Below are positions 1-18,989 of a DNA stretch of 64,000 bases, piece by piece. Made by a program: the position numbers and the translations under genes. How positions within the stretch are numbered: the first letter of the stretch is position 1; the number at the start of each line of letters is the position of its first letter. The DNA is from Phallus indusiatus (Eukaryota > Basidiomycota > Agaricomycetes > Phallales > Phallaceae), in assembly GCA_027605045.1 (NCBI GenBank), contig JAQFWX010000003.1, positions 2,294,001 through 2,358,000 of the forward strand. The letters are read 5' to 3'. Below the pieces are notes generated by a model. That model had not been told where the DNA came from, searched no databases, and worked only from the letters and a program-made list of their open reading frames with translations.

Positions 1-3000
1 CGCGCTTACTCTTTGAGGATTAACGCGGCTGGTATGGATATTCGCAAGGCCTCCACGACTGGAGACAGCGATTTTTTGAACTCGATTCCTGCGGAATATC
101 GTGATTTCGCTGACGTTTTCAGTTCTGAAAAAGCCGACATACTAGCTCCTCATCGACCATACGACTTAAAGATCGAGTTAGAAGATGGGACCACTCCTCC
201 CTTAGGTCCTATCTATTCCCTCTCTCCGATTGAGCTTCAAGCTTTGCGCGAATTCTTGGATGAAAATCTCGCCAATGGTTTCATTCGACATTCGAATTCA
301 CCTCATGGAGCACCTGTTCTTTTCGTTAAGAAGAAAGATGGATCACTTCGTCTTTGTGTCGATTTTCGTGGTCTTAATAGACTCACAAAGAAAGACAAGT
401 ATCCACTTCCCTTGATTTCTGATCTTCTTGATGCTCCTGGCAAAGCTCGAATTTACACCAAAATCGATTTGAAGCATGCTTATCACCTCGTTCGAATAGC
501 TGAAGGCGACGAATGGAAGACTGCTTTTCGTACGCGATATGGCTCTTTCGAATGGCTCGTTATGCCATTTGGTCTTTCGAATGCGCCTGCGGCTTTTCAG
601 CGATTTATGAACGAAATCTTTGGTGATCTACTCGATTCGTATGTCGTTATTTATCTTGACGATATTTTGATTTACTCCGATTCCCCCGAAATTCATCGCG
701 AACACGTTCGAGAAGTCCTTGCAAGACTTCGTGCGAATGGTCTCTTTGCTTCTCTGAAGAAATGCGAATTCTCCAGAGATCGCGTGAATTTCTCGGATTC
801 GTTCTAGGCCCGCAAGGTCTCGCCATGGACCCTGCTAAAGTCAAGGATATTCAACTTTGGCCACCCCCTCGTAAGGTCAAAGACGTTCAGTCTTTCCTTG
901 GGTTTGCCAATTTCTATCGTCGTTTTATTGATGAATACTCTCGAATTACCGTTCCACTGACGCGTCTTACCAAGAAAGGTATTGTGTGGAACTGGACTGA
1001 TGAGTGTCAACAGGCTTTCGACACGTTGAAGAAAGCTTTTACGACTGCCCCTGTGTTGGTACACTGGGTGCCCGACAAGCCAATCATAGTCGAGACGGAC
1101 GCGTCTGACTATGCTCTCGCCGCGATTTTATCACAATTCGACGAGAACGACGAACTCCATCCGATCGCTTTTCACTCTCGAACCTTTACAGGTCCCGAAC
1201 TGAACTACGATGTGCACGACAAAGAACTCCTTGCGATTTTTGAGGCGTTCAAGCGATGGAGACACTATCTCGAAGGTTCCGTTTTCCCTATCGATGTCTA
1301 CACCGATCACAAGAACTTGGTCTATTTTACGACGACTAAGGTTTTGACTCGTCGTCAGGCCAGATGGTCTGAATACTTGTCTCAGTTTAACCTTTCGATT
1401 AATTTCAGACCCGGCAAACTCGGCACGAAACCTGACTCTTTGACTAGACGATGGGACGTCTACGCTAAGGAGGGAGTAAACGACTATGCGTCCGTTAATC
1501 CGTTCAACGAAAAGTCGATTTTTACCTCCGAGCAACTCAAGGCGTGTATCAATGCTACGATTTTGCACCCCATCTTCGCTCGTGTTGCCGTGGTTATGGA
1601 TGTTGATAAGCTTCATTTCGATATCCTATCTGTTTTGAAAGACGACGAATTTGCTAAACGTCATCTTCCCCGCAGTTCCAATCCTCGTTGGACTGTCGAT
1701 TCCAAAGGTTTCCTTCGTTGTGATGGCAGGATTTACGTCCCGATCTTCTCGATTTACGATTGCGCGTTATGCAGTACAAGCACGACCACCCTTTGTCTGG
1801 CCACTTCGGCCAGAACAAGACACTTTCGCTGATTCGACGCGAATATGTTTGGCCAAGTATGCGCACGATGATCCGAGAATTTTGCAAGTCATGCATCCCT
1901 TGTATGCGTGGTAAGTCTCAGCGACATAAACCTTACGGTTTCTTGCAACAACTCCCGATTCCGATTCGTCCTTGGGATTCGATTTCCATGGATTTCATCG
2001 AACACCTGCCTCCCTCGAATGGTTTCACCTCTGTTCTCGTTATTGTAGAACGACTTACGAAATACGCTCTTTTCATTCCAACTTTCGATACGATTTCGTC
2101 AGCTGATCTTGCTCAGCTCTTCGTTTTACATGTTTTCTCGAAACATGGCATTCCATCTCACGTCACGTCAGACCGTGGTACAGAATTCGTCTCTCATTTC
2201 TTTCGATCTTTGGGTAAAGCTCTCGAAATGGAACTTCATTTCACTTCGGGCTACCACCCTGAGGGCGATGGTCAGACCGAACGAACTAATCAGACTCTAG
2301 AGCAGTACATTCGTATCTATTGCAATTATCAGCAAGATAATTGGGCGGATTTGTTGCCTCTTGCAGAGTTTGCGTTCAATAATGCTGAAAGTGCTACTAC
2401 AGGTGTTACCCCTTTCTTTGCGAACAAAGGATATCACCCTCGTCTTTCAGTCAACCACGATCTTCCCTCACTTCTTCTCGCGCTCTCGATTTCGTCTCTC
2501 GATTAGATGAAATTCACTCCGAACTCAAGTTTCAGATCGAACTCTCTCAGAAACGGTACCAAGCCCCAGCAGACAAGAAACGTTCGCGATCTCCCGATTT
2601 CCCGATTGGGTCAAAGGTCTTCGTGAAAGGCGATTTCTTTTCAACTACAAGACCTTCGCGAAAGCTGTCTGACAAGTACCTTGGTCCGTTCGAAGTAATT
2701 GCTATCCCTAATAAGGTTACGCGAACGCTTCGATTACCTGAAAACTTTCGTACCGTTCATCCTGTGTTTCATGTTTCTATGCTTGAACCAGCTACTGATA
2801 ATTCGATTCCCAATCGTGTTCAGGAACCACCTCCGTCTGTTGAAATCGAAGGTGAAATCGAATACGAAGTGGAAGCGATCCTCGATTCCAAGATCGACAA
2901 AAGGCGCGCTTGCCCGCTGTTGTATTTGGTTAAATGGCTTGGTTATGACGGTACTGATGAAGAATCCTCTTGGCTGATCGCCACCGAATTAGAGCACGCG

Positions 3001-3078
3001 AAAGAACTTGTCGAAGACTTTCACAAGTCTTATCCAGACAAACCCGGTCCCAACTGGCGTCACTTGGTTAAAAAATAA
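1..3078 (+). pseudogene. Ty3/gypsy pol (RT, RNase H, integrase, chromodomain), frameshifted
   Basis: This is the pol of a chromodomain Ty3/gypsy retroelement; its 5' part lies outside the window. Reverse transcriptase comes first, with the YLDD catalytic motif near base 652. RNase H follows, with ETDASDYA near 1093. Integrase then shows the H-H-C-C zinc motif (about 1775-1910) and the D-D-E core (MDFIEHL, SDRGTEF). The end (about 2860-3040) is a chromodomain with LVKWLGY. The frame changes three times, near 785, 1745-1760 and 2465, while homology to the family continues across each break, so no intact polyprotein can be made. The accessory antisense gene and LTR downstream belong to the same element. 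Confidence 0.93.
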
Positions 3079-3318
3079 AATGTTTTGACGTATCGTTTTC
3101 CTTTCGATTTTATTTTCGATTCTTTCGATCTCTTGAATGACTTAAGGTAGAATTACATGTAACGATTTTCTTTCGTTCTGTTTCAATCTCTTCCTTTTTC
3201 GATCTCTTACGATTTCTTTTCCGATTTCACACGATTTTAACTTGAAGAAAATTCTATAAGATACAAAGATAAACAAAAGAAAACATTATAGTAGTACAAA
3301 ATTAGTAGTTAGATTACA
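3079..3318. other. Spacer between pol and the antisense gene
   Basis: This is AT-rich sequence with no ORF of note. It lies between the tail-to-tail ends of pol and the antisense gene, so it should carry both 3' ends. I see no other structure. Confidence 0.5.
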
Positions 3319-4737
3319 CTATTGTAACGTTGGGGCCGGAGCTTCGTTTTCGTTCACAGTCCCCTCCACAATTTTGTCATTTCCTTCGTTTTCCCCTTCT
3401 ACACTTCCTTCTGCTGTATCTTCCCCCTTTTCTCCTTCTCCTTCGTTCTCCTCGATCTCCCCTGCGATCTCCTCCGAACCCTGTTCCTTATCCTTGCCTT
3501 TTCCTTTGTCCTTCCTCCCCGCGTTCTCCTCAACGATTTCGTCCGATCTTCCGAACCAGAACTCCTCGCCCTTTTCACCGTACTCGCGACTAGATGGAGA
3601 CAAGTTAGCTCCGATACTTACTAACTCGTCCCCCGAATCTTCCTCTCTTGCGTACCGAGGTAGCAGAGCCTTGACCAATGGCTCTTGCAACGACGCAGGC
3701 AAACCCCGACGACCATTGGTTGGAGTGTTGGCAACACTCTGACGAATGGCCAATGCCGAAGGATCGGTCCGATCTTGAGTCATGGCCAGCTGAACGAGCT
3801 TGTTGAAGCCCATTTCACACGTTCGGTGCATGGCCCGAACGGCCTCGGTCAGCATTCTAATGTCGTCCCGCGTCGCGAAGTTTTCGATCGGTGGAGCGGG
3901 TCGGGAGGGCTCTTCTTCCAACGAAATGATCTCGTCCTCGTCGTCGTATACGTATTGTTTTGTGGTCTTTTGGACCACTTTACCGCGATTTTGACCTCGA
4001 CCGAACTTTGGACGAGGATTATGCGAACATTTGCGTTTTTGTTCGCGACAGCGAACACAGATTGTTTTTGCCGGAACTTGTTTTCGACATTCGTAACCTT
4101 CTTTCTCGCATTGATCGCACGATTTGGGGTATAGAGCACCCCCTTCGCTTGGTTCGAGATCGGTCATTCGAACGCGTTTTGGTGGTGGTGGCGAATCTTC
4201 ACTTTCGACTTGTAATCGGGCCCTTTTCGATGGACCCGCGACTGGTTGTGGATTGAGTTTTGGCAACTCAACGACCATTTTTTTCGGCTTCGCCTAGAAA
4301 ATTACAAGTCAGAAATCGAACCGAAAAGAAAAAAGATCACGCACCGGTCTCAACTCGGGATACTGTTCTAACAGCTCCTCCATTTTCTTTCGCCCCTCCT
4401 CTTCCTTACGCTTCCTCTCCTCCTCCTGCTTCTTCTCCTCCTCTTCCAATCTCTTCCTCTCCTCTTCCTTCCGACGCGCCTCCTCTTTTGCCTTCTCCTC
4501 ATCGATTTTCTTCTTCGCTTCGAAATATTTCTTTTCGTAATGACGTTGGGCGTTAACGAAATCTTCATCATCGAAATCATCGTCGATCTTGCGAGGGATG
4601 ATTTCGACGCCTTCGAGAGCTGGCAACAAATAGATCTTGCGATTTTCGATCGCCCACTTGGCACGAGCGTCAAAAGTAGAGAGAGAAGTAGAGGATGAAG
4701 AAGACATAGAGCGAATTTTGTACCGATTGAAGGGCAA
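3319..4737 (-). CDS. Antisense accessory gene of the gypsy element: coiled coil plus Zn(II)2Cys6-type motif
   Basis: Two exons, 4737..4345 and 4293..3319, are joined by a 51-bp intron (donor GTGCGT, acceptor TTCTAG), giving 455 aa. The N-terminal half is a highly charged Glu/Lys/Arg coiled coil. Exon 2 encodes six cysteines spaced C-x2-C-x6-C-x9-C-x2-C-x6-C, which is the spacing of fungal Zn(II)2Cys6 DNA-binding clusters. A charged Glu/Gly-rich tail follows. The gene lies antisense between pol and the 3' LTR, so it is carried by the retroelement. The intron shows its transcript comes from the opposite strand to the genomic RNA. A second in-frame ATG at 4707 is possible. The function is unknown; DNA binding is inferred from cysteine spacing only. 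Confidence 0.72.
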
Positions 4738-5098
4738 TTGAGTAATGCCGAAGACGAAAAACCCAACTGACTTTATACAAGTTGACGCGTTTCAGAATTT
4801 TCAAACTCAGATTCATCACGTGACTGGTTCCGCTCATGCATGCCCCGCCGAATCCTTTTTTGGATAACGCCGTCGTTTGATGAATTTTAACCGACAGAGC
4901 GGACATTTTTTTTTCTGATCCGACACGTTTCACTGGAACTTCTTTATTTTCAGTGAAGAAAATTCGCGCGTTTCATGGGTTACGCTTCTTTTCTTGATTT
5001 TTCGAAACTTTTCACTGCGTTTCAGACAGAAACGTAATAGTTTCACTTGGATTTTTGGACACGGAGATCTCGAGGGCTCGATCTTAAGGAGGGAGTAC
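4738..5098. other. Gypsy element 3' non-coding region with polypurine tract
   Basis: This region lies upstream of the antisense gene and ends at the 3' LTR. A purine run (AAGGAGGGAG, 5086-5095) sits three bases before the LTR and is the expected primer site for plus-strand synthesis. Confidence 0.6.
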
Positions 5099-5677
5099 TG
5101 TCACGAGCCGATTTTCTCGTGACATCGATTTAACGATTTAATTCGATTTCACATTCTTTTCGAACTCGAACGAACGAACCTTATAGAGATCGCACTCTAT
5201 ACGATCTCTCGAACACCGATTACCGATTTATTCACTTTGACGATCGGTGAGGTTCCATGATATAAATAGAATACTTTCTATTTCTTTCTTTATGATTCTA
5301 ACGAACCTCACGACTTCCTCGAGTACTATTATGTACTTTCCGAATTAGTACTTTCTTTGTACTCGACCCTGCATCACTTTGTAGTATTTAAACTCGCTGT
5401 AAATACCATACAAAGTCGTCTTGAAATCGAACTCTGATTCGATTCAAATATATTTCATTGTATTTCAAACCTCTTTGAATTACAACTCGTCTCTTTATCT
5501 CGAAACCCGATTTTTCTCGATTCTCTCGATCTCTCGCCTTTGGCGACGGAGTCGCCAAAGTCTTCGTTATCTCCGGTTGTTCTTCGTTGTGAGTGCTGAT
5601 TCGTCACGATCCAAATTGAGGAATACTCTCAGGCCTTTGGAGCGGGCGCAACACATAAGTTGAAGCCAAGTTCCTCA
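5099..5677 (+). repeat. 3' LTR of the gypsy element
   Basis: The LTR starts TGTCACGAGCC and ends TTCCTCA, 579 bp. It is recognised because a diverged copy lies inverted at 15043-16856, matching along its whole length apart from one insertion. Its first 26 bases form a hairpin: GTCACGAG pairs with CTCGTGAC. Confidence 0.88.
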
Positions 5678-5744
5678 TCCTCCGATCTCTCGATTCTCGA
5701 TCCCTCGATCTCGCGATCTCGAACGGTCTCGGATCTTGACACAT

Positions 5745-5850
5745 AGCCAAGTCGAAGGACGAGATGGCCAAGTACTACGATCGGAAACACATCCCGGCAC
5801 CTGAATACAAGGTTGGCGACAAGGTATACCTCGATTCGAGCGACATTCGT
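5745..5850 (+). pseudogene. Relic of a second gypsy integrase C-terminus
   Basis: About 35 codons in the plus direction read AKSKDEMAKYYDRK followed by APEYKVGDKVYLDSSDIR. This is the conserved stretch after the integrase core in Ty3/gypsy elements (KVGDKVWL-type motif). It runs straight into the minus-strand hairpin-rich element at about 5850, so it marks a rearrangement or truncated insertion. Confidence 0.7.
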
Positions 5851-6417
5851 ATGTATGTCTTCCATGTCGTCGTCAGACGACATGTCGTTGAAGATATCAG
5901 GCAAAGGGGCTGCCTGGGATGGTTCAGGCGCTTTATCGGCCTGGTCTCTCGACCGCTTTTTGGAGGTCGATGGGGTAGTCGACGGGCCTGTCGTCGACGC
6001 TGAACGTTCAAGTTCAGCAATGCGAGCTTTCAGCTCGCAGATACGACGATTCGCATCGTCGAGGTGGTCTGTCAAGGACTTGACGTCCTTTTCAGCTTCT
6101 TCTAGACGTTCGTCTAGATGATAGTACTCCCTCCTTATGAAGGGAAATGCCTTGTAGACGGCCTGCTTGACCATATCATGGTCAAGGATGATTGCCCCGC
6201 TGCCAGCGGGGCCTGCCAGGTGACTGGCAAAGTCGTTGCACGCAGTGCAACTATCATTGTTATGATAGACGGATATGCATCCGTCCATTGCGTCTAAGGT
6301 CCATTCGGACCTTTGCAGGGCCAGTTGAGCCTCTGCTTTTTTGAACCTACTAACAGGTTGCGGCGTAGGCGACCGCGAGCGTGATCGTTCGCGTTGTTTT
6401 CCCTTGCTGTCAGGCAT
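5850..6417 (-). CDS. Third ORF of the hairpin-rich gypsy element (coiled-coil protein, 3' truncated)
   Basis: This ORF starts at 6417, downstream of the integrase. It encodes a basic Arg/Ser-rich N-terminus, a CxxC pair, a predicted coiled coil rich in Glu/Leu (about residues 100-140) and a Lys/Arg-rich stretch that could be a nuclear signal. A TATATA sequence on the minus strand at 6461-6466, about 45 bases upstream of the ATG, suggests its own promoter. The frame stays open to 5629, but from about 5850 it reads through foreign sequence, so the natural C-terminus is lost. I do not recognise the family. Confidence 0.5.
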
Positions 6418-6551
6418 GGGGGGTGTGAGGGAGAAAAGACCGTGAACGGACTTTTTGGGTTATATACTTGGGCGGCCTCATGGAGCGCCCAAGTGAAAAT
6501 TACCTCACCGCGTAGCAGTGAAGTGCCAGTGGATCCCTGTGGGTGGGATCT

Positions 6552-8270
6552 TCAAGCAGATCCCCGAGTGGGATCTGGGCGCTTGTTGTTGGTCCGCGAC
6601 TCTCCGTGATTGGATAGTCGTGGCAGCTGCCGAGGCTCGTTTACGCCTCGTAATTGCAAGTACTCGTCTAGAGCTTGCAAATCCTTACAGTTATTGTAAG
6701 GTTCCCAAGTGGTATCCCCAAGGGTCCACTGGACTAGGAACTCGAGATCTTTCTCGCGAGTTCCACTCCAGCGATGAGCTAGGAGTTCCTCGACGTGCCA
6801 TCCAGCATCGTCTGGCTGTCCAAAGTCATACGCCGTGAGTGTATCGCGGCGTGGAAATCTCTCATCATCATTGGCGATGTGAGGTTTAATCAAATCCACG
6901 TGAAATACGGGATTTATGCGACGTTGCTTGAGCTCTTCAGAGAGCTCAAGTTTTACTGTAATGTTGTCCTTGACGGACAACACTTTGTATGGTCCCACAT
7001 AACACGGGATCAACTTCTTAACTCTCCCCTTGGGGAGGTTGAGGTTCCTCGTCGACAGATAGACGAGATCACCCTCTTTGTACTCCGGTGCATCGCGCCG
7101 TGAGTTGTTCGCGTAGTGAGCCTGTTTAACGTGACTGGCTATGATAGCGTCATGCGCTATCATGAGATTCCACTTTGCCTGTTGAGCAAAGTGTTGAACA
7201 CCTTTGAATTTGGTGTTCGTCTCAATTTTCCTTCCCAAGCTGGGAAGGTAGCCGTAATTGAGTTCAAACGGCGCGAAACCAGTGGTTTCGCTGGTGCTGC
7301 TATTAATAGCAAACTCCACCATTGGGATCCTTTCGGCCCAATCTTTTTGATCGTTCTGTATGACGGAACGAAGTATTTGACCAATCGAGCGATTGGCTCG
7401 CTCGGTAGATCCATCCGTTTGCGGATGGAACGCCGTGGACATGAGCAATCGTGTCCCCATTAGGCGTTGTAGTTCCTGCCAGAACTTGGCAGTGAATCGT
7501 GCATCCCTGTCACTCACGATTGAGTCAGGGACACCGTGGAGTCTTACGACTTCACTGAGGTATAACCAGGCTGTGCCCTTGGCGGTCAGCTTGGTGGTGG
7601 TTGGCATCAGACGAACCATAGAGGTCAGTCTGTCAATCATGACGAATAGGAAGTCGTGGCCGTTTGACATGGGTAATGGACCGACGAAGTCCATTCCAAT
7701 CGATTCCCAAGGTCTATTGGGAATCGGGAGTTGTTTTAACAGACCACTGGGGTGATTATTCTCCCCTTTATTGGTCTGGCACGTTCCGCAGGATCTGCAG
7801 AACGTGTCGATGTCTTCAATCATCGATTTCCACCAGTACGCTTGTCTAACGTACTGAGACGTTTTGTAACGTCCGAAGTGCCCAACAATTTGGTGGGCCT
7901 CACTGATTATAATCTCAGTGATCCTCCTCCCCTTGTAAAATGCGTTATGGGGGACGCATAATACGTCGCGGAGGAACTGATTCTTGGTAAAGATCAGTTG
8001 GTTTTTAATTCCAAACGCCTTGTGAGCGTTTGGGTTGGCAAGTACCAGCTTAAATACTGGGTCCTTGTGATAACCTTGCTGTATCAGCGAGGTAAGTTCA
8101 GCAAAGCCCTCAATTTTGGCTTTAAGAAGCTTGCTGTCTTGCTCTGCACTTAGGGCAAGTATATCCTCATCGGATTGCGCTTCTGTAATATCAGAAGGCA
8201 TAGTATTTGAGGGACCTTCTACTCGAGGTTCCTCTCGTACTCGTGAACGTGTAATAACGTTCACTCTCAC
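6552..8270 (-). CDS. Gypsy integrase with C-terminal chromodomain-like region (hairpin-rich element)
   Basis: The 572-aa ORF begins with a linker, then the H-H-C-C zinc motif (HQIVGHFG ... CRSCGTCQ) and the integrase core with MDFVGPLP, SDRDARF and the later catalytic Glu. The C-terminal region has GDLVYL and HVEELLAHRW ... FLVQWTLGDTTWEP, like the divergent chromodomains of this clade. All catalytic residues are present. It is in a different frame from the upstream RT ORF and separated from it by about 390 bp. The coding sequence is full of short inverted repeats, for example a 10-bp stem at 7701-7726. Confidence 0.9.
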   Translation of the reverse strand: MRVNVITRSRVREEPRVEGPSNTMPSDITEAQSDEDILALSAEQDSKLLKAKIEGFAELTSLIQQGYHKDPVFKLVLANPNAHKAFGIKNQLIFTKNQFLRDVLCVPHNAFYKGRRITEIIISEAHQIVGHFGRYKTSQYVRQAYWWKSMIEDIDTFCRSCGTCQTNKGENNHPSGLLKQLPIPNRPWESIGMDFVGPLPMSNGHDFLFVMIDRLTSMVRLMPTTTKLTAKGTAWLYLSEVVRLHGVPDSIVSDRDARFTAKFWQELQRLMGTRLLMSTAFHPQTDGSTERANRSIGQILRSVIQNDQKDWAERIPMVEFAINSSTSETTGFAPFELNYGYLPSLGRKIETNTKFKGVQHFAQQAKWNLMIAHDAIIASHVKQAHYANNSRRDAPEYKEGDLVYLSTRNLNLPKGRVKKLIPCYVGPYKVLSVKDNITVKLELSEELKQRRINPVFHVDLIKPHIANDDERFPRRDTLTAYDFGQPDDAGWHVEELLAHRWSGTREKDLEFLVQWTLGDTTWEPYNNCKDLQALDEYLQLRGVNEPRQLPRLSNHGESRTNNKRPDPTRGSA

Positions 8271-8659
8271 TTCATCCCTTCTTTCGATGGGAAGATGATC
8301 CCCTTCTGTTAGGGCACGATCGTTCAGTGGTGAGACTTAAGGATCAGACTGCTACTATAACCCAGTAACCCAGTCTATAATAGCGCAAGGAACTACTCAT
8401 GCGCGCACAGTTGTATATATACATGATTACGCTATCTCTGACCAATAGCTATCAGGTGCATTATCTACCAATAGGAAGGACGGTAGCCGAGGACAATACG
8501 GATGACATAGAGAAAGAGGGAGATAGGGCAGAATGGAGCGAACGGAGAAACGGGGAGAGTTCGGAAGAATACGCGAGGGATAACTACGGACCGGCATACC
8601 GGGTACCGTATGACCGACGTAGAGCACGTAGGCATCTAAGTAGGTTATACTATACTGCG
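8271..8659. other. Non-coding gap between RT-RNase H and integrase
   Basis: Related elements run RT-RNase H into integrase in one frame, so this gap is unexpected. About 8330-8680 also lacks the dense hairpins of the rest of the element. It contains TATATATA near 8414 and looks like a later insertion, but I could not define matching target duplications. Confidence 0.45.
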
Positions 8660-10786
8660 CTAATATGCTAGAGTGACCGTAAACCAGAGACGTACCCTGA
8701 CACCTTCGGGATCAAGTCTAACGTCAGCATTGACGTATACCTCCGGAGGGTGAACCTCATCCGGAGAGTCCTCTTCGTAATAACGAGAGAGGCCATCGGC
8801 GACATTGTTAGTGACGCCCTTGACATGAATCGTTTCGTAATCAAAATGAGACAGGTATTCATACCACCGTGCTTGGCGCGGTGACATGCGAGGCTGGGTC
8901 TTGAAGTGGACCATGGCCTCATTGTCCGTTACTAGGGTGAATCTTCGCCCTAGTAGTTTGTCTTCCCACTTGAGGAAGGCTTCAAGTACCGCGATGAGTT
9001 CATGCTCATGGGTGCGGTAGTTGTACTGCGCAGGGGTGAATTTCTTCGAGAGAAACCCTGCTGGCCTACATGTCTGCCATGTAGGCCCTTGCCCATAATA
9101 GGCACCGACGCCACATTTAGAGCCGTCGGTTACGACCCAAATTGGATCTGGGTCGTCCATGTTAATAGGCTTCAAGATAGGAGCCTTTCGCGTGAGTGCT
9201 TTGATTGAATCAAAGCACTTGTTCAACAACGGCGTCCATACGAACGGTCTGTTGTTGTACGTACACCCTGATAGTGGTGTAGTGTATGCGGCTACCCCTG
9301 GTAGGTATGCCGCAACGTATTGTACGAGGCCCAGAAATTTCTGGACATCGTTATACGTGCGTGGGGTTCTCCACTCACGTATTTTATCCATCTTCTCGTG
9401 ATCGGGATGGATGCCATCATCGTCGATGATGTGGCCTAAGCACTCCAGTCGCTTAGAGTACAAATCAACTTTACGACTACTTAGGTAAAGTTGTGCTTCT
9501 CGCAGACGCGAGAAGGCATTCTCTAGATGCTGCTGATGCAGATCTATTGTGTTTGAATAGACGAACACGTCGTCTATGTATGCATCCGTCGAACGACCGA
9601 TGCAGTCCCTAAATATATGGGTCATCAGACGTTGAAATGTCGATGGGGCATTGCAGTCTCCTTGCTGCATGACATGGCTCTTGAAAGTGCCATAGATGGT
9701 GGCAAAGGTCGTCTTGTGGACGTCCTCTGGGACTATGCGTACCTGCTCGTACGCCTCAGTCAGATCAATCTTTGATCTGTATTTGTGTCTCGCCACGTTC
9801 TGGCGGATGGTTTCCTGATCAGGGAAGGGCGTTACGTCCTTCTCTGTGTTTTCGTTCTGCAGGCGCAGATCGAACACGGTCCGTAGTGCTAAGACCACGG
9901 CTCGTTTCTGCAGGCAAAGCATAGGGATTGCCTGTGTAGCTACAGTTGGTTCCCACCAACCTGCAGCTACGTATCGCTGAATCTTCTCAGCGAGTAGCGC
10001 TTTGAGCGCATCCGGGCACCTGGGAAGGTGGTACCGGATCTTCTTATTGGGTTCAATAAGAGGAATCTGATGATTCACTTCCCGAAACGGGGGAAGTCGG
10101 GAAGGGACAGGACCGAAAAGGTCACTGTACTTGTTCTTCCAGTACTCGATGAGTGCTGGGATATTCTTTTCCGTCATCTCAGGGACGGAGGAGCTGGAAT
10201 GTTGGGTGCTGGCTAGCACCATCGCTCCTGTTTCAGGAGCGTGTCCAATCACATGGTGATTGGTGTCAATCACCTCGCCGTCGCGGGTGATTGTACCTCT
10301 GCTGAAATCCAGGCAGATGTTGTAGCGTCTCAGGAATGGGACGCCAATGATCACATCATAGTGATCGATGTTGACGATGTCAAAGTACTCTTGGACATCG
10401 ATACCTCCGAATTGGATTCGGGTGTACGTTCCATACTGGATGGAAGACTTGCTGCCCTTAACGGCCAGCTGCAGCACGACAGGTTTGTCGAGCTTGAAGG
10501 TTCTTGCCCCGGTGGCAAGAGAGAAATGAGGGGACATGATCATCCCCTGGCATCCACTGTCGACTAGGCAGTGAGCCAATTGGCCATTAACTGGCCAGAA
10601 ACCCTCAATGGGTCTCGATGCGTTTCTGTCTCGTGTTGGGGCACGAGAGCTCACTCTAGCCGTATGGTCATAGAGTGGTTCCTTGCTCGTAGCGAGCGAG
10701 GACTCATTGTCATCCAATGGCGATGACTTGTGGACCGCGAAGTGCAGTCTGCGCTCCTCATACTCGTCACCAATTGTGAGGAGCAT
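8660..10786 (-). CDS. Gypsy protease, reverse transcriptase and RNase H (hairpin-rich element)
   Basis: The 708-aa ORF has an aspartic protease with DSG (CLVDSGCQG, about residue 77), reverse transcriptase with YIDD (DAYIDDVFVYSN) and RNase H starting at VVTDGSKCGVGAYY. It ends at RLDPEG plus a short unrelated tail, where the family would continue to integrase. It overlaps the gag ORF by 136 bp in another frame, as expected for gag-pol frameshifting or an indel. The ORF has no internal stop. Short perfect inverted repeats occur throughout, including a 12-bp-arm palindrome at 9195-9219. Confidence 0.92.
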   Translation of the reverse strand: MLLTIGDEYEERRLHFAVHKSSPLDDNESSLATSKEPLYDHTARVSSRAPTRDRNASRPIEGFWPVNGQLAHCLVDSGCQGMIMSPHFSLATGARTFKLDKPVVLQLAVKGSKSSIQYGTYTRIQFGGIDVQEYFDIVNIDHYDVIIGVPFLRRYNICLDFSRGTITRDGEVIDTNHHVIGHAPETGAMVLASTQHSSSSVPEMTEKNIPALIEYWKNKYSDLFGPVPSRLPPFREVNHQIPLIEPNKKIRYHLPRCPDALKALLAEKIQRYVAAGWWEPTVATQAIPMLCLQKRAVVLALRTVFDLRLQNENTEKDVTPFPDQETIRQNVARHKYRSKIDLTEAYEQVRIVPEDVHKTTFATIYGTFKSHVMQQGDCNAPSTFQRLMTHIFRDCIGRSTDAYIDDVFVYSNTIDLHQQHLENAFSRLREAQLYLSSRKVDLYSKRLECLGHIIDDDGIHPDHEKMDKIREWRTPRTYNDVQKFLGLVQYVAAYLPGVAAYTTPLSGCTYNNRPFVWTPLLNKCFDSIKALTRKAPILKPINMDDPDPIWVVTDGSKCGVGAYYGQGPTWQTCRPAGFLSKKFTPAQYNYRTHEHELIAVLEAFLKWEDKLLGRRFTLVTDNEAMVHFKTQPRMSPRQARWYEYLSHFDYETIHVKGVTNNVADGLSRYYEEDSPDEVHPPEVYVNADVRLDPEGVRVRLWFTVTLAY

Positions 10787-11598
10787 GTATACACTGGGAC
10801 CATTGTCATCATCGTCCCATTGGTATTGGATGCCCTCGTCGTCCTCGACGGGGTCGTTGGTGGGCTGTCTTGGGCCACCTCTTCCTCCACAGCTTGTTCA
10901 GCTGTGGGGTCTTCCACGTTCTCCTGCGGGGCATCGTTCGATGTCTCGCCAGAGGTCTCTTCAACCTCTTCGATACGACCCACATTGGCTCGTACCTGTC
11001 TCAGTCTGGGGCACGCATTTCTGTAATGTCCCACCTGCCCACAGTTGAAACACGTGGGAGGGGTAGTGCTAGTGCGATTGTTCGTACTAGTTGGGGCAGT
11101 CCTAGCGGGCTGTGAGTTATGATTTCTCGAGCTTGATGAGCTCGAGGGGCGATTCCCCAATGGGGAATTGCCATTAGTTCGTGTCTCATGAGGACGCGCA
11201 GAGGGACCGTGGTTCCTCTGGTTCAAGCGCATGTTGTTTGAGTGCGCTTGTCTGGCCAAGTTAGTGTGGCTGCTGCTGCTGCCACTACCACTACTGCCAC
11301 TACTACCCGTTGGACGGGTAGTGCTTCCTTGGGAGGCCGTTATCGACCTCCGCTTCTTGAACGCCTCCTCTACTTGGATGGCGAGTGCAAGAAGTTCCTT
11401 AGCAGACATCTGCTCAGGACTACCGCCTCTGAATGCTACTTCAGCGGCGAGGCTGTGGTTCAGCCCATCAAGGAACCTCCTCCTGAATGTATAATCATCA
11501 GGAGGGTGCGCTAGTCTGTTGGCTAGCGTGAGTAACGCACTCATGTATTCGTGTACAGAGTGCGATCCTTGCCGTTCGCGTTCGAACTGGATCGCCAC
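10651..11598 (-). CDS. Gypsy gag, C-terminal part with zinc knuckle
   Basis: This is the C-terminal half of gag, with a retrotransposon-gag domain (RERQGSHSVHEYMSALLTLA), a Ser/Asn-rich linker and a CCHC zinc knuckle (CFNCGQVGHYRNAC). No ATG begins this frame. It continues the upstream gag ORF after a +1 shift at the stop at 11600. The last 50 or so residues look out of frame where pol begins. Confidence 0.85.
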   Translation of the reverse strand: MAIQFERERQGSHSVHEYMSALLTLANRLAHPPDDYTFRRRFLDGLNHSLAAEVAFRGGSPEQMSAKELLALAIQVEEAFKKRRSITASQGSTTRPTGSSGSSGSGSSSSHTNLARQAHSNNMRLNQRNHGPSARPHETRTNGNSPLGNRPSSSSSSRNHNSQPARTAPTSTNNRTSTTPPTCFNCGQVGHYRNACPRLRQVRANVGRIEEVEETSGETSNDAPQENVEDPTAEQAVEEEVAQDSPPTTPSRTTRASNTNGTMMTMVPVYTCSSQLVTSMRSADCTSRSTSHRHWMTMSPRSLRARNHSMTIRLE

Positions 11599-11599
11599 C

Positions 11600-13471
11600 T
11601 CACTTCTCGAGTGGGGTGGGAGGAATCGTTCGTGTAGTCTCCGTAGCGGGGACTAGGGTCCACTCATGCATGGGACGAGTACCTCGTTCCACGTTCTGGG
11701 TGAACCACTCTTGTGCCAACCCTTCTAGGCGCATGCCTAGAAAGGAGAGTTGCTCTGCTTGGCTGACTTCTCCAAGCAGGTGGTTTACGCGTAGCCAGCG
11801 TAACAGACCCGACACAAAGTTGTCGAAGTCCTCGGCTCTGGACGAGCCGCTATATGTGGGCGGGAGCCCTATCTTCGCTCCTGCTTTCGCAAGGGGCGAG
11901 TTGCCTGGCATCATATCCCTGTTTGCAATCAGGGCTTCTTGAACCATGGCTATGACGCCCTCAAGTACTGGGGCGTCGTCGTTGAAAGGGTCAAACCTTT
12001 CAACACGTTCCTCATCGAACGGTGTGGCGCGGAGATCCTCGCCATACTGTGGTCGACGAGCGTATCCATCATATGGATCGATACGTGGTGCTTCTGCTGG
12101 GTTAGCAGATGCTTGCCTCTGCCCATTGGGCTCGGCACTTTGCCTTGGCAGTTGTCTGCCAGGGGGTGATGCTCTGTCGTCTGGACGACTTGAGCTTGTG
12201 GCTGGGTCTGGCGATGGGATCCTATCGCCAGTGATGGCATTATAGCCACCTTCAAGCACACGAGCATGGCGGACCGCGTTCATACGCGCGTCCCTCGCGA
12301 TGCGGATCCTATCTTGGATGATCCGCATTTGCTGCTCGTTGGGAGTGTCAGTCTCGAGAGAGCCTGCTACAGCTTCCTCGAGCGCGTTAGTGGCCGTCTC
12401 AACAGCCCGTGCATGCGTACGGATTGCTCTGTCGGAGAGTAGCCTTGCTATCCTCTGGTATTCGAGGGCAGCTTGGGCGACCACTTCAGCATCCTCTCGT
12501 GGGGGTGCTCCATTTCGCGACTGGTTCACCAGTCGCGTGGCTATCTCGGTATCGATATAGTCACCAACCGCGTCAGACTCGTGAGGCGGTTGTCTTGTGA
12601 AACGGTGCATTCGTCTCACTGTTTCTCTGCCAGCCTCTATTTCGGGGCCGGGGTTTCTAGGAGCTGTATATGCTGTAGCTCCTTGAGTAGGAGGTCTATC
12701 AGGACGCGTACTCGGTCCTGGGGTAACGTTCTGGGAACGTTGTCTGGTGCCTGTTGGTGCAGGCTCAGGGGATTGGGAATTACCAGCTGTCGCTGGTGAC
12801 GGACTGGCATATGTCGGTCCCGTCGGTGTAACAAACCTAGCTTGTGGGGCTGGGTTTGTGAATTGATATGCAAGGCGACTCGTCGGCCCTGCTGGTCTAG
12901 GACGAGTAGATCCAGTACCTGATGCAGGCGGATCTACCGCTCTGCTTTTTCCTTTGTCAGAGCGTGCTCGTGCAGGCTCTGCTTCAGGAGACAAGTCTGT
13001 TGTCCTGACTTGGTCCCTGTCAGTGCCTGTAGTAACAGGCTCTGGCTCAGGGTTTTCAACTCCTGCGTTGACATTCTCGATTAATCGAGCTAGTCTCTGC
13101 AGTTCTGACAGGGACATATTCCCGTTCCTCACGCCATCGAGTAACGATGCGTGAACAGCGTTCATTGTCTCGTCCCTTCGGATGGACCTGTCGCTCCTGA
13201 CGCTAAGTCTGGAGCGACCAGATGCTACGGACTTTACGTCCTCATCTTCTTCATCAGCGAGTTGGGGCTGATGTTCCATCGTCTGCGATGCAGAACGAGT
13301 GGGATTTTGTGTTGATGCATCCACTCTCTCCCATGTGGATGACTCTCCTTCGAGGGTTCCTTCCCTAGACGGGTCGGGATTTTCGGTTTGCACTGGCCCG
13401 GGTGGGTCAGGCTGATTGGAATCAGGTGTACCACGATCTGGTGCACTCTGACTTCTGGTAGTAGGAGCCAT
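11600..13471 (-). CDS. Gypsy gag, N-terminal part
   Basis: The 623-aa ORF starts only about 10 bases inside the probable LTR. The N-terminal two thirds is low-complexity Pro/Ser/Thr/Arg sequence. The end holds the first part of the gag domain (LPPTYSGSSRAEDFDNFVSG, then LRWLRV and the EWF motif). A stop at 11600 interrupts gag, which continues one base out of frame; this may be an indel or a programmed shift. The stop sits in a small hairpin (CACT/AGTG). Confidence 0.82.
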   Translation of the reverse strand: MAPTTRSQSAPDRGTPDSNQPDPPGPVQTENPDPSREGTLEGESSTWERVDASTQNPTRSASQTMEHQPQLADEEDEDVKSVASGRSRLSVRSDRSIRRDETMNAVHASLLDGVRNGNMSLSELQRLARLIENVNAGVENPEPEPVTTGTDRDQVRTTDLSPEAEPARARSDKGKSRAVDPPASGTGSTRPRPAGPTSRLAYQFTNPAPQARFVTPTGPTYASPSPATAGNSQSPEPAPTGTRQRSQNVTPGPSTRPDRPPTQGATAYTAPRNPGPEIEAGRETVRRMHRFTRQPPHESDAVGDYIDTEIATRLVNQSRNGAPPREDAEVVAQAALEYQRIARLLSDRAIRTHARAVETATNALEEAVAGSLETDTPNEQQMRIIQDRIRIARDARMNAVRHARVLEGGYNAITGDRIPSPDPATSSSRPDDRASPPGRQLPRQSAEPNGQRQASANPAEAPRIDPYDGYARRPQYGEDLRATPFDEERVERFDPFNDDAPVLEGVIAMVQEALIANRDMMPGNSPLAKAGAKIGLPPTYSGSSRAEDFDNFVSGLLRWLRVNHLLGEVSQAEQLSFLGMRLEGLAQEWFTQNVERGTRPMHEWTLVPATETTRTIPPTPLEK

Positions 13472-13481
13472 TGAATCCTCC

Positions 13482-13877
13482 TGTAATAGGAAGGGTTAAT
13501 TTCGCTTGCTTAATACAGCGGCGGGTTGTTTTTAACGCCTTTGGTGTTAAAAAAGATGTAACGTTTCGTTACTTTTTATAGTGTACCGCTTGCGGTACAC
13601 AGTTTATATCACGCTGTAGTTTCACGCCACAAGTAACAGACCAAAGTGCTGTATTTTCTTTGTGGAGTAAAACAAATTGCGCGTGCTGAATCAGCACGCG
13701 CGTAGCTACTACTAATGTATAGTTATTACATAATGGCTCGCCGCGCCGCGGCGAGCCAGAGGCGTTAAGCGCCTCTGTTATTAGAGTAAGTAATAGTAAC
13801 TACTGCAGAGGGCGAAGCCCTCTGCATATGCTTAAGTGGCATATACTCAATCCACCGCGTGCGGTGGATCCATTACA
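13482..13877 (-). repeat. Probable 5' LTR of the hairpin-rich element
   Basis: On the minus strand it starts TGTAATGG and ends CCTATTACA, so it has the TG...CA ends and short inverted termini (TGTAAT/ATTACA) of an LTR. It contains a TATA-like CTATAAAAAG. It holds at least five perfect hairpins with 8-11 bp stems (13581-13600, 13679-13701, 13735-13757, 13805-13825, 13850-13869) and two shorter ones. No second copy survives in the window to confirm the ends. Confidence 0.6.
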
Positions 13878-14748
13878 GGGAGTGTGATGAATTTCGGAAA
13901 ACATACGCCGATTCTGATCCTGATTCGAAGTCATGGGCGGCGGCGGCTATCTCTGGCTGATTCTTGAGTATGCGTGCCTTGATGTCCGGTGGCATGTCTT
14001 TGACGCAGTACTGAGAAATGTGGCCTGACCGTCCACATCTCCAACAAACTCCTTCTCTCCCTTGGGTGTTGCCCCAGTCGAAGTCGGTGTGGATTTTCCT
14101 GGCACCCCCATGCCTCTTTGGTCTGTAGTCTTTGGCGGCATGGGCTTCGTCTGATGACGAGACGCTGCGGGTCTTTGGTTTTGTCCGGAGCTTCTCTTGG
14201 TTTTCGAACTCCTTTAATGCATCAGTGAGTTCATCAATAGACGGTGCTGGGCTCCGGTGTGAGAGGACGACGCGGATTGAGCTGAAAGATTGATCAAGGC
14301 TCATAAGGATCTTGTCCATTATTTCGGTGTCGTTGGGTCGATGGCCAATGTTTCCCAACTTGTCGGCAATGTTGAGGATCTTGTTGATGAATTGGGTCAC
14401 GTCCTCGGTCTTGGAATCGAATTTCGTGAAGTAGAATTCACTGCGTAGAGTGAGACGGGAGGATGGCGTGTCGCGACAGTACTTTTTCTTCAGGGCGGCC
14501 CACGCTGCGCTTCCGCACTTGTTGGTGGTTTTTATAACCCGTCTGCAGCTGTCGCTCACTGTCAATGAGATGATCGAGTAGAGTATCTTCTCTTGTTCGG
14601 GTTTTAATGTCGATTCTTCCGACGCGCCAGGTAGGGTATAGCCGAGTGCGGTCAGGTAGTCTTCTAGCACATCTGACCAATCTGACCAGTTGTCGCCCTC
14701 GAGTTTTGGTAAACTACTGATGAACTTGATATCAGTGGTTGAGGGCAT
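13873..14748 (-). pseudogene. Copia-type gag, truncated by the gypsy insertion
   Basis: The 291-aa ORF belongs to the copia gag family (UBN2-like). The N-terminus reads KLEGDNWSDWSDVLEDYL, the middle has the family's CGSAAWAALKKKYC stretch, and a CCHC zinc knuckle (CWRCGRSGHISQYC) lies near residue 235. Copia gag normally continues into protease, integrase and RT in one frame. Here the frame stops where the hairpin-rich LTR begins, and no copia pol is found. Confidence 0.85.
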
Positions 14749-14939
14749 GGTTTTATAGTGATTGAAGGATGGATGGGTGGATAGTGTAGGGCGAAAAATT
14801 AAGTGGTGATGGGACTCCTAAAATGTGGTTGACTCAAAAAAGTTGGATGCTCAAAAAACACAGAAATGGATGCTCGAAAAGAAACACAAAAAAGACACGA
14901 AAAAAGACACGAAAAATTACGCTGACGGGGCCCGTAACC
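14749..14939 (-). other. Copia leader between LTR and gag
   Basis: This is the untranslated leader of the copia element. Just inside the LTR the minus strand reads GGTTACGGGCCCCGTCAG, which is where a primer-binding site would lie. I could not match it to a particular tRNA. Confidence 0.5.
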
Positions 14940-15042
14940 TGTTGGAATCCCAGGCACGATGGTGTAGCGGACGCACAAAGGTGTCGTCTATAAGCGCTGT
15001 GACTAGCTACTATATACAGGAGGAGTAACTCATATTCCAACA
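14940..15042 (-). repeat. Copia 5' LTR (103 bp)
   Basis: It begins TGTTGGAATATGAG and ends GGGATTCCAACA on the minus strand, with matching inverted ends (TGTTGGAAT/ATTCCAACA). It contains TATATA. It lies 191 bases upstream of the copia gag and directly abuts the 3' edge of the inverted gypsy LTR. Confidence 0.75.
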
Positions 15043-16856
15043 GAGGAACTTGGCTTCAACTTATGTGTTGCGCCCGCTCCAAAGGCCTGAGAGTATTCCT
15101 CAATTTGGATCGTGACGAATCAGTACTCACAACAAGGGACAACCAGAGATAACGAAGACTTTGGCGACAGAGTCGCCAAAGGCAAGAGATCGAGAAATCG
15201 AGAGTTCGGGAGAAAACGAGGTTTCGAGATAAAAAGAAGAGTTGTAATTCAAAGAGGTTTGAATACAATGAAATATATTTGAATTGAATCAAAGTTCGAT
15301 TTCAAGACGACTTTGTAAAGTATTTACAGTGAGTTTAAATACTACAAAGTCATGCAGGGTCAAGTACAAAGAAAGTACTAATTCGGATAAGTACATAATA
15401 GTACTTGAGGAAGTCGTGAGGTTCGTTAGAATCATAAAGAAGGAAATAGAAGTATTCTATTTATATCATGGAACCTCACCGATCGTCAGAATCAATAAAT
15501 CGGTAAATCAGTAAATCGAGAGATCGCATAGAGTGCGATTGTCAAGTACCGATATCCGGGAACGGTAATAGATACTATAATGTATTTTAGTCGCTGAATA
15601 TAACACCAATAACTGTCACCGTTGGTTGACGACAGTCAGGACTTGGCCTCAACCTATAAGAGGTTGTGCTGCGACAGTCTTCTTCAGGATTTGTCCTGAC
15701 GTTCGTCACGAGCGTCGAGTTCGTCAAGGACGTTTCTGTCACGGTACGCTAGCGCCTTTTCCGATTATTCAATTCCTTCGATTTCTTTCGGTTTCATTTC
15801 GTGTTACGATTTCCTTCATTTCCCGTACTTTGCCGTTTCCATTAGTTCCATCGTTTTCTCGATTTTTCGATCTCTTCGATTTTCCTCAATTTCTGTCTGT
15901 ATCTCCTCGGATCCCATGGGGATCAGTCGAGTGCTTCGTATCCTGTACTTATATGCGTTTTCCCTAGAGGGGGATACCTAAGCTTGTTCTCTTAGGTTTT
16001 CCCTCCTCTAGGTGAGTAGTTAGTCGCTGCCCCTCAATAGATCTTAGGTTTTCCCTCCTCTAGGTGTGTGCCCTGAGTCGCCCTAACAGTTTCTGATATG
16101 TGCGTTCCGAGCTTCGAGAGTCGCGAGCTGTATCTCGTACTGGATGATATCAAGCTCGACGATAATGAAGAAAACTTCAAGATGTAACTCTCGGCAACGA
16201 CGGATGGCTTCCGTCGCTGCAAGTCTCGAGGTGTGATCTCGACGTTCAATGATGAATAGAATAAGAGAAAGAGAGTTTATAGAGATATCGAACTACGTTC
16301 GATATTAAGTCTGAAGAACTATCTACGTGTATGCTAGGGTTTATATACACGTCAGATAAACAATTCTAGCTCAGTTCGAAATAGATTCCGAACTTGAGAA
16401 ATACAAACAAGTCGTGAGATTCGTAAGTAACATCAATATATGCAGGGTATGATGTCTCATGTGATGAACATGAGGTGTGCAGGGATAAGAGCTGTGCATA
16501 CATGGACCTACGTTCGTCATCTATGATCTCATAGCCGGAACGTGCGTGGAATATTCTAGAAAGGCCTATCCGCGGGTGTTCCAGGAGTTAAGAGAGACGG
16601 GTGCATCTCTATTCGAGTTGTAAGGTTGATTGAGATGACTGAACGCGAAGGTCATATCGTGAGTGACGTAAGCGAGATAAGATTACGGAGATAAACGGTA
16701 AATGATTGGATATGGATTACGTAACGTTACCGGAAGTGATGTCATGAATCGGATCATGACAGCGATCTCTATGAGGTTCATTCGTTCGAAATCAAAAAGA
16801 ATGTGAAATCGAATTAAATCGTTAAATCGATGTCACGAGAAAATCGGCTCGTGACA
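15043..16856 (-). repeat. Second gypsy LTR, inverted and split by an insertion
   Basis: Bases 16856-16762 and 15539-15043, read on the minus strand, align along the LTR at 5099-5677, from TGTCACGAGCC to CCAAGTTCCTC. The copy is diverged by many substitutions and small indels. Removing the insert and one target copy restores continuity (ATAGAGATCGCACTCTAT). No internal part of this second element remains beside it. Confidence 0.85.
15540..16761 (-). mobile_element. 1.2-kb solo-LTR-like insertion with 5-bp target duplication
   Basis: The segment has TGTCA...TGACA ends and is flanked by GCGAT on both sides (15535-15539 and 16762-16766). The uninterrupted sister LTR at 5099-5677 shows the empty site. 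On the minus strand it starts TGTCATGATCCGATTCATGA, the same hairpin design as the host LTR. It contains TATATA near 16343 and a direct repeat (TCTTAGGTTTTCCCTCCTCT) near 15990 and 16042. It encodes no protein. It is either a long solo LTR or a small non-autonomous element. Confidence 0.75.
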
Positions 16857-17503
16857 AGGGGCGCGCATGGGAGAAATAGACAACGTGCTACCAGGCACAA
16901 GCTTTCTGAAATTAACCAATAAGTTCCCACGTCGCAATACGTCCATACTAATGCAGTTAAGAACAGGCCACATACCGTTAAACCATTTCCTGTACAAGAT
17001 AGGAAAGGCGGAGTCACCACTATGCCAAGCATGCGAGCTAGAAAGAGAAGACGTGTCACACTACTTGATGAAATGCCCGAGACACGACAGGCACCGCCTC
17101 AAGATGCAGCAATATTATCGGCAGCACATCATCTCTAAGAAGACACTTCTAGCAAGCCCAAAAGCGATGAAGTACCTCTTCGAATTCGTCAACAAAACAA
17201 AACGATTCGAAACACCATACGGAATCTTTGACGAACCCAAGACAACCGACCGGGGCAAGAACTCGAAGAGGAAGAGGAACCCAAATGCGATGTAATGGCC
17301 ACACTCATAATCATAACCCGGAGAACCGCCAACGAGAAACAAGCAAGAAGAAGAAATAGACGGAGACGACAGACATTTCAAGCTATCAGGACAAAACACA
17401 GAGACCTAAGCGGCAAAGAAGAACACGAAGGAGGAAAAGTCTCAAAACATAGGGCCAGGCCCTTCGAGACTTATAGGATCTACACACACACACACACACA
17501 ATG
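16857..17503 (+). mobile_element. LINE 3' fragment ending in a CA repeat
   Basis: The ORF at 16867-17295 encodes the C-terminal end of a non-LTR retrotransposon: the family's LRTGHIPLNHFLYKIG stretch, then the zinc motif CQACELEREDVSHYLMKC. RT and endonuclease are absent; the fragment is cut on the left by the gypsy LTR. About 200 bp of 3' UTR follows and ends in about nine CA units (17482-17500) instead of poly(A). The next base is duplicated gene sequence, so the element sits in that duplicate. Confidence 0.8.
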
Positions 17504-18270
17504 AATACTATTCGTGAACTGGGGTGTGCATATAGAGAGGTATTTATGGGGAAAGTCGCGTCAAGCGTACTGCGTATTGTTAGAGGAACTTTGGGCTATT
17601 CGTTGAGAGCATACAGTCGTACTACTTTGTGGCTCGGAGTGCTAGGAATATATGTATATATATCTTCACAATATTGTTGACTTCCATCCACACATTCAGA
17701 AACACGGGATAAACACAGCATAACTCGCGCGTTCGACAATGGCCGGGAGATCTGAAACTGTACATCCTGCCAAGGATGCCTCGATCGTTTTACTCCGATA
17801 GTGTAATTTCGTCGTCTTCTGCGAGTAAGAAAACCGCGGGATTCGTAAGAGACAATAATTTTCATGCTTCAGCAGGGAGAAGATAATATTGTTATTATAC
17901 AATGACAGCAGATAAATTATTTGCATACGGACATTCTTAAAAGTATAATCTTCACCAAGAGCGTCGAAAGATCTGTCAAGACATGACAGGCTTGCCCCAA
18001 CGGGTAGAACGATATCGATGTTTATTGGAGAGTGCGAGACTGGTCGTGAATGCTGGATCAATAAATATTAATAAATGGCCGGTAACGGTGAAATAGGAAT
18101 GTAAGAAATACTGTCAATATTTAGAGACAGTGACTAAAAAGTACGCACCTTGTTTTCCAAAATAAAGACGAGATATTCCGCCTGGCGTAACTACGGAAAT
18201 CCCATTTGGCCTTTGTTCTCCCGCGCTGAACCCGTCTGAATCTCCAAAGAGCTTGGTAAGTGACGTCGAG
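17504..18270 (+). repeat. Diverged duplicate of 30408-31120 (3' end of the DUF6535 gene and flank)
   Basis: The block opens ATGAATACTATTCGTGAACT and follows the last 70 or so codons of the 27012-30623 gene and its downstream flank to about 18270, with indels. The rest of the gene is missing on the left, where the LINE begins. The minus strand keeps an open stretch (SRPVSHSPINIDIVLPVG ... DRSFDALGEDYTFKNVRM) also present at 30.8-30.9 kb. Confidence 0.8.
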
Positions 18271-18860: not shown

Positions 18861-18989
18861 GGGGTACTACTAGTAGTAGGACTATGAGCGGATTACCGTT
18901 GAGGATTAAAGATGGTCGTATGTCTTCCCGTTATCAACTCGCCTTTTGCACAATACTTCTTGTTGCCAATCTGCAACGCAACAAAAAAA

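Follow-up and report, generated by a model that had tools for sequence, protein, structure and literature searches.

Why should the sequence of a retrotransposon be crowded with short perfect hairpins? The question is raised by a window of 64,000 nucleotides from Phallus indusiatus (assembly GCA_027605045.1, contig JAQFWX010000003.1, positions 2,294,001 to 2,358,000), which carries a chromodomain Ty3/gypsy element with a long terminal repeat (LTR) at 5854-13877 on the minus strand (extent from similarity to other copies, with loci L031 and L032 aligned). An earlier note, made from the letters alone, had counted more than 25 perfect hairpins of 8-12 bp in this element. A mechanical count of 5854-13877 bears this out and finds 52 maximal perfect stems of at least 8 bp with loops of 1-12 nt, 41 of which have loops of at least 3 nt. 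Our answer, held with about as much belief as doubt, is that the RNA of this LTR retrotransposon family is under pervasive selection, mainly at synonymous sites, for a string of short local hairpins.

Hairpin excess and folding strength

Stems of at least 8 bp reach 6.5 per kb in 5850-13877, against 1.0 to the left of it and 0.3 to the right. In codon-preserving shuffles (200 per open reading frame, ORF, with stems of at least 8 bp counted), every element ORF in the window lies above all 200 of its shuffles. The excess, which the earlier note had judged by hand to be beyond chance, comes to 5-15 stems per ORF against shuffle means of 0.28-0.64 and maxima of 2-5, and it is independent of protein and codon use. 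The parts of the element are as follows.

5854-13877, minus strand: hairpin-dense chromodomain Ty3/gypsy, window copy, lacking the 3' LTR and the remainder of the second ORF (alignment to L031 and L032)
13557-13877, minus strand: 5' LTR, 321 bp, begins TG and finishes CA (L031 LTR pair; 321-bp matches in L019 and L023); 6 perfect stems of at least 7 bp against 0.45 expected, the longest of 12, 11 and 10 bp
11600-13471, minus strand: gag N-terminal part, an ORF with no Pfam match; 6 stems of at least 8 bp, codon-shuffle mean 0.37, maximum 3
10651-11652, minus strand: gag C-terminal part, Retrotrans_gag and CCHC zinc knuckle by Pfam, in its own ORF here; 6 stems, mean 0.28, maximum 2
8660-10786, minus strand: protease, reverse transcriptase (RT) and RNase H (Pfam RVP_2, RVT_1, RT_RNaseH); 15 stems, mean 0.64, maximum 3
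6552-8336, minus strand: integrase (H2C2, rve, SH3_Tf2-1) and chromodomain by Pfam; 12 stems, mean 0.5, maximum 5
5854-6459, minus strand: start of the second ORF (about 600 codons in L032 and L033), which has a coiled-coil stretch; 12 stems of at least 7 bp against 0.38 expected; for the ORF at 5629-6459, 5 stems of at least 8 bp, mean 0.34, maximum 3
8307-8702, no strand assigned: insert of 396 bp, begins TG and finishes CA, target duplication of 5 bp, present also in L010 and L026; no stem of at least 7 bp

Individual stems include the following.

13804-13826, minus strand: 10-bp stem, 3-nt loop, LTR
13734-13758, minus strand: 12-bp stem, 1-nt loop, LTR
13679-13701, minus strand: 11-bp stem, 1-nt loop, LTR
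13529-13553, minus strand: 8-bp stem, 9-nt loop, immediately internal to the LTR, in a stretch that is similar in the sister family described below
12516-12537, minus strand: 10-bp stem, 2-nt loop, gag
9195-9219, minus strand: 12-bp stem, 1-nt loop, RNase H region (domain position by Pfam)
9063-9087, minus strand: 10-bp stem, 5-nt loop, RNase H region (domain position by Pfam)
7834-7856, minus strand: 7-bp stem, 9-nt loop, loop and stem retained in the sister family with two compensatory pair changes
7701-7726, minus strand: 10-bp stem, 6-nt loop, integrase

Chance or base composition as the cause of the stems is ruled out by the codon-preserving shuffles, dinucleotide shuffles and local controls. 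No known RNA family was matched at gathering score within 4000-17000. The description of 5850-13877 as packed throughout is right in density; the boundary is 5854, and the insert interrupts the packing. The spacing of about 25-40 bases given by the earlier note agrees with a median centre distance of 38 nt (non-overlapping stems of at least 6 bp, L031 and L032). Its statement that neighbouring elements lack the excess is correct for the copia gag in the window, with no stem of at least 7 bp, and not quite so for the other gypsy at 1-2600, which lies slightly above expectation (6 such stems against 2.6, maximum 5 in 40 shuffles). Eight of the nine non-element ORFs that were shuffled fall inside their shuffle range for stems of at least 7 bp; the exception, ORF 3319-4278, has 5 such stems where its shuffles reach 4. 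Of the two outcomes that the earlier note had named as refuting, neither overturns the excess.

The genome (67.2 Mb, 206 contigs) was searched with the RT region, giving 65 matching places; 63 of 620 candidates were scored, so that family copy numbers are lower bounds. The matches split in two, a window family (93-100% protein identity) and a sister family (71-82%), the families being 77% identical in protein. In locus bases 1501-3600, each of the 26 window-family loci examined, the window copy (L001) among them, carries 11-20 stems of at least 8 bp, and the four sister-family loci L027-L030 carry 0-1. Per 5.1-kb locus, with loops of 3-16 nt, the sister family has 43-46 stems of 6 bp against 8-9 expected and 17-20 of 7 bp against 1.8-2.0, with 0-1 of at least 8 bp. 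Relative to codon shuffles, stems of 5, 6, 7 and 8 bp are enriched 1.9, 3.4, 7.8 and 15 fold in window-family gag-pol, and 1.5, 4.4, 6.8 and 0 fold in sister gag-pol (8 bp: none seen, about 1.2 expected); in L032, a window-family locus, stems of at least 7 and at least 8 bp exceed codon shuffles 12-fold and 30-fold. The 240 bp seen of the sister LTR contain one stem of at least 7 bp. Hairpins of at least 6 bp span 40-42% of the window-family sequence examined and 22% of the sister. A regular spacing was considered and rejected: gap sizes vary beyond random placement in the window family (coefficient of variation 1.19-1.22 against 0.98) and are close to it in the sister (1.07 against 0.99).

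When the RNA was folded in windows, as had been proposed, it lay far below its shuffles. For the mean energy of 90-nt windows against codon shuffles, z is -32 for L032 gag-pol and -16 for L032 ORF2, -11 and -6 for the same parts of the sister, and +1.5 to -3.2 for five controls on the sense strand. The gypsy L034 folds better than its shuffles, and more so in antisense (z -6.4 vs -3.2 sense). The energy difference of 350-nt fragments from dinucleotide shuffles is 38.7% (33 fragments, 24-51) and 38.0% (9 fragments, 31-49) for L032, with 31 and 31% in antisense, and 39.4% for the window copy, with 29% in antisense. The sister gives 15.8% (35 fragments, 0-30) and 11.1% (9 fragments, 7-15), antisense 12 and 12%. 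Seven controls (three gypsies, two host genes, an RNase H ORF and the copia gag) range from -1.2 to 5.8%, antisense -2.9 to 9.3%, with gypsy L034 highest.

As gypsy controls for stem counts, 30 loci were brought in by RT_RNaseH_2, and most are within about twofold of expectation. Loci L034-L039 form a further gypsy family, in which 6-bp stems are mildly in excess at about twice expectation; L044, L053 and L054 reach 2-4 times in one size class; and L056 and L058-L061 have 2-3 stems of at least 9 bp against 0-0.6 expected. L062 is high (7 stems of 8 bp, 6 of at least 9), but its flank overlaps a window-family ORF2 stretch. Other sampled gypsies and host genes are near or modestly above chance in stems and folding. 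The hairpins go beyond what the element proteins call for, and suggest an unusually strong demand on RNA shape.

Selection or mutation

We infer that selection on folding, and not mutation, is the cause, and that the molecule which folds is RNA. Among the three causes offered by the earlier note, selection for RNA structure fits best, because of the folding z values, a pairing-phase bias in favour of synonymous sites in the window family, loops that at fourfold sites are rich in A and poor in G, and indications that stem stability has a ceiling in the sister coding sequence. The phase bias is seen in L032 gag-pol stems of at least 7 bp, where the phase with only 3-3 pairs free is enriched 7.9 times and the other two phases 16 times. 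In fourfold-site loops of L032, A is at 0.35 vs 0.23 and G at 0.12 vs 0.22, together with C at 0.28 vs 0.34 and T at 0.25 vs 0.21. The stems accommodate the protein sequence, and amino-acid identity to the sister is 0.778 in stems and 0.762 outside. Enrichment covers loops of 3 to about 16 nt and is absent from inverted repeats whose loops exceed about 30 nt.

Enrichment grows with stem stability, to 14-21 fold in the window family and about 5-6 fold in the sister, which has no stems past -11 kcal/mol (0.9 expected by chance). Its longer stems are less rich in G+C, with mean energies of -6.3 kcal/mol at 6 bp and -6.7 at 7 bp, and the spread of stem energies is narrower than in chance stems (standard deviation, sd, 1.7 vs 2.5 at 6 bp and 1.9 vs 3.1 at 7 bp). 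An A-T pair closes the outer end of 77% of the 65 6-bp stems and of 90% of the 21 7-bp stems. No stem of at least 8 bp occurs in sister gag-pol, and two of 8 bp appear once ORF2 is included; since only about 1.3 such stems are expected by chance, the case for a ceiling rests on the contrast with the 6-7 bp excess. The whole 10-kb sister locus has 9 stems of at least 8 bp, so the length ceiling fails outside coding sequence.

Several observations weigh against selection on RNA folding. In the sister family no pairing-phase bias is seen. Among copies, shared changes in perfect stems are barely fewer than expected (63 vs 74.4), and shared variation per kb is 57.7 in stems, 44.1 outside hairpins and 68.6 in loops. 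The comparison of hairpin arms between copies for joint change, which had been proposed as a check, gave a weak answer: 7 pairs were concordant, compared with 0-5 in the nine slid controls. Among one-mismatch stems of L032, A-C is enriched 8.1 times, G-U 2.4 times and the rest 2.8 times, so that sense G-U pairs are not favoured. Pairing past the first mismatch is at about chance (0.25), leaving the stems isolated, and stem G+C is little above that of chance stems.

Stem conservation between the families is likewise weak. Of 106 mapped L032 gag-pol stems of at least 6 bp, 20 have at most one mismatch in the sister locus L033, and in 5 of these 20 one or more pairs are compensatory; in the clearest case an identical 9-nt loop is retained while two pairs are exchanged. 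Kept pairs number 366 of 738 against a null of 343 (sd 11), and exceed the null by 1.9-3.0 sd in five tests (window stems of at least 6, 7 and 8 bp; sister stems of at least 6 and 7 bp). Most hairpins differ between the families; therefore density, more than single hairpins, persists.

The main mutational alternative is that template switches in the course of reverse transcription copy one arm from the other and perfect near-palindromes, with protein constraint acting afterwards as a filter. In its favour are the perfect, isolated stems that do not carry on past the first mismatch, a stem G+C little unlike that of chance stems, and the greater stem length in the LTR, which is non-coding (12 and 11 bp, loops of 1 nt); the available part of PMC8604942 describes template switching as homogenising short inverted repeats in yeast genes. 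We nevertheless consider this explanation unlikely, and the earlier suggestion of repeated switching is disfavoured. Inverted loops between copies were found in 0 of 143 cases. Changes of quasi-hairpin mismatches to Watson-Crick pairs show no excess (3 vs 5.3 among singletons, 4 vs 5.4 among shared changes), and a comparison of 19 rare hairpins with non-carriers shows a single arm-base difference in 17 and two in the other 2. The A-rich loops, the A-C excess and the near-absence from sister coding sequence of stems of at least 8 bp, with A-T ends, are not predicted by template switching. The yeast cases in the same excerpt of PMC8604942 resemble the element in that coding DNA holds inverted repeats that are short and perfect and have small spacers; they comprise 30 genes with multi-base changes and spacer inversions, whereas the element has about 6 stems per kb with no inversion found and no multi-base signature. 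As a separate observation, singletons among the aligned window-family copies show sense T to C changes at twice the A to G rate per site (51 vs 24 per kb).

Strand and possible function

On the strand on which selection for folding would act, the signs conflict: window-family mismatches look antisense and loops mainly sense. In 90 one-mismatch 8-bp stems of L032, A-C occurs 40 times against 18.2 expected by codon position, and G-T 8 times against 12.0; in 58 such stems of L033, A-A occurs 16 times against 7.1 and A-C 15 times against 11.7. Sister one-mismatch enrichment is 3.7 times for A-C, 2.8 for G-U and 2.6 for the rest, with no clear lean to either strand. Simulated selection for sense folding leaves G-U at 3.8-4.8 times and A-C at 2.6-2.7, and for antisense folding A-C at 4.6 and G-U at 1.8. 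These simulations (4, 40 and 40 sequences of 990 nt) used a random order of codons from three non-element window ORFs, one of which (55036-57042) contains an RNase H domain and could be part of a different mobile element; selection in them ended at a gain of 45%, and they indicate only the tendencies left by folding selection. Loop composition is mainly as in the sense simulation in both families. Decay after insertion is an unlikely source of the A-C mismatches, because singleton rates give an A-C:G-U ratio of only about 1.4 and the excess is also present in majority alleles (34 A-C vs 6 G-T of 86).

We judge it improbable that folding takes place in an antisense RNA or a minus-strand copy and that the hairpins matter there. 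The A-C excess of L032 (equivalent to antisense G-U) and its somewhat C-poor, T-rich loops match the antisense simulation; however, the stronger loop signal, G-poor and A-rich in sense, is what the sense simulation yields, the sister shows A-A in place of a clear A-C excess, and the energy gained by L032 gag-pol per 90 nt is similar on both strands (9.0 kcal/mol sense vs 8.3 antisense). A more descriptive reading, which we put forward tentatively and with rather more doubt than belief, is that a retrotransposon clade has been remodelled over its full length (including the window-family LTR) into isolated, mostly 6-8 bp Watson-Crick hairpins. The force would count complementarity within about 34 nt, ignore sense G-U and obey a family-specific length limit, yielding an undescribed nucleic-acid architecture, perhaps of the antisense or of both strands.

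The hairpins may serve as a silencing shield, in packaging or in compaction. For the first, the mechanism that we think likeliest, though still doubtful and drawn from general knowledge, is that stems too short for Dicer would keep sense and antisense element RNAs folded on themselves. Annealing between such RNAs, and between them and host small RNAs, would be poor, and RNA silencing could be blunted without a Dicer substrate being provided. Several loci of the host genome match Piwi and RNA-dependent RNA polymerase families, and small-RNA silencing is therefore possible in the host.

If the hairpins were instead dispersed packaging signals, Gag would bind many short stem-loops, gathering and compacting the genomic RNA for the virus-like particle. 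Gag carries a zinc knuckle, the loops are A-rich, and short stem-loops occur throughout the RNA, like the packaging signals that the available part of PMC6281560 describes for several RNA viruses. We rate this as improbable too: a 3-mer count over the window and sister families found no shared loop motif beyond A-richness, and the top 3-mers differ between the families; loop sizes of 3-12 nt are all present; the longest stems listed for the window copy lie in the LTR, plus one 12-bp stem in pol; and most individual stems are unshared between families. The element and the viral signals of that excerpt (PMC6281560) are alike in having many short stem-loops on one RNA, and differ in that no loop motif was found in the element.

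The element and its relatives

By Pfam, the window copy encodes a Gag with a CCHC knuckle, protease, RT, RNase H, integrase and chromodomain, with rve and Chromo scores below their curated cut-offs. Its coding sequence is split into separate ORFs and ends within the second ORF (residues 8-202 of 599 present). Only the 5' LTR is there; no 3' LTR was found when 1-20000 was compared with the whole window. The insert at 8307-8702 is likely a solo LTR of another element. In L032, gag-pol stays open over a single frame of 2020 codons, and the second ORF after it has 599; the corresponding frames of L033 have 2141 and 603 codons. The order RT, RNase H, integrase, chromodomain is present in L032, in L033 and across two ORFs of the window copy (Pfam). 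LTR pairs are 99.6% identical in L031 (261 bp) and 100% identical in L033 (240 bp), both cut by the locus end; from these pairs we infer that both families moved recently. No such pair was found within the 10 kb of L032.

The second ORF follows pol in both families (L032:318-2114 and L033:297-2105, both minus strand), with 31% identity between them and a coiled-coil stretch. It matched no Pfam family above its cut-off, and its predicted structure was unusable (mean pLDDT, the predicted local distance difference test score, 40.5). No homologue of the sister-family ORF2 protein (P0122) was found among 7999 scored candidates; P0121 was searched in its own genome only. Protein relatives of the element number 413 at E <= 1e-30 of 7994 scored, with up to 64% identity among the 120 listed; named relatives among those listed are from Rhizoctonia, Phanerochaete, Trametes and Pleurotus. 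Viral contigs gave 4 pattern matches, none of them a relative.

At window 13520-13580 and the start of L033, the LTR end and the adjoining stretch are nearly identical across both families. No obvious tRNA-type TGG primer site is seen there, and self-priming is possible. Inverted copies at 5189-5676 and 15043-15539, 91% identical, flank the nest of gypsy and copia gag, and the same 10-bp hairpin occurs in both (5538-5560 and 15159-15181).

The earlier note knew of no described element of this kind. The open-licence literature agrees in so far as no such retrotransposon hairpin array appears among the matches listed for ordered structure, basidiomycete gypsy, inverted repeats, antisense and packaging; the phenomenon itself does have a relative, the genome-scale ordered RNA structure (GORS) of RNA viruses. 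We regard the element as an extreme and odd relative of GORS in a retroelement. As far as the available excerpts of PMC7642675 go, both show coding-sequence folding energies far past shuffled controls, many consecutive stem-loops, and individual pairings that are poorly kept between relatives. The element mean of 39% compares with a range of 7-24% that this coronavirus paper gives for structured viruses (hepatitis C virus 7-9%, SARS-CoV-2 about 15%, and a record of 23.4% among vertebrate RNA viruses; PMC7642675), percentages that are only approximately comparable because the shuffling program and step differ, though fragment size matches. Unlike a positive-strand RNA virus, the element is an integrated LTR retroelement with an integrase, and its stems are isolated, mostly of 6-8 bp, with sense G-U unfavoured against the expectation from our own simulation. 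With chromoviruses it shares Gag with CCHC, protease, RT, RNase H, integrase, chromodomain and LTRs; it differs from them in hairpin density and in the extra ORF of about 600 codons after pol.

To our knowledge, no function has been agreed on for large-scale RNA structure in RNA viruses, a matter that PMC7642675 also takes up. Here a retroelement signal far stronger than that of RNA viruses occurs beside a weaker sister family, little-affected gypsies and many recent copies, all in one genome. Because strong, weaker and little-affected families are found together, the possible causes (silencing, packaging, mutation) are separable by comparison. If the reading of selection on RNA folding is true, the synonymous sites of a transposon can hold a second dense layer of information.

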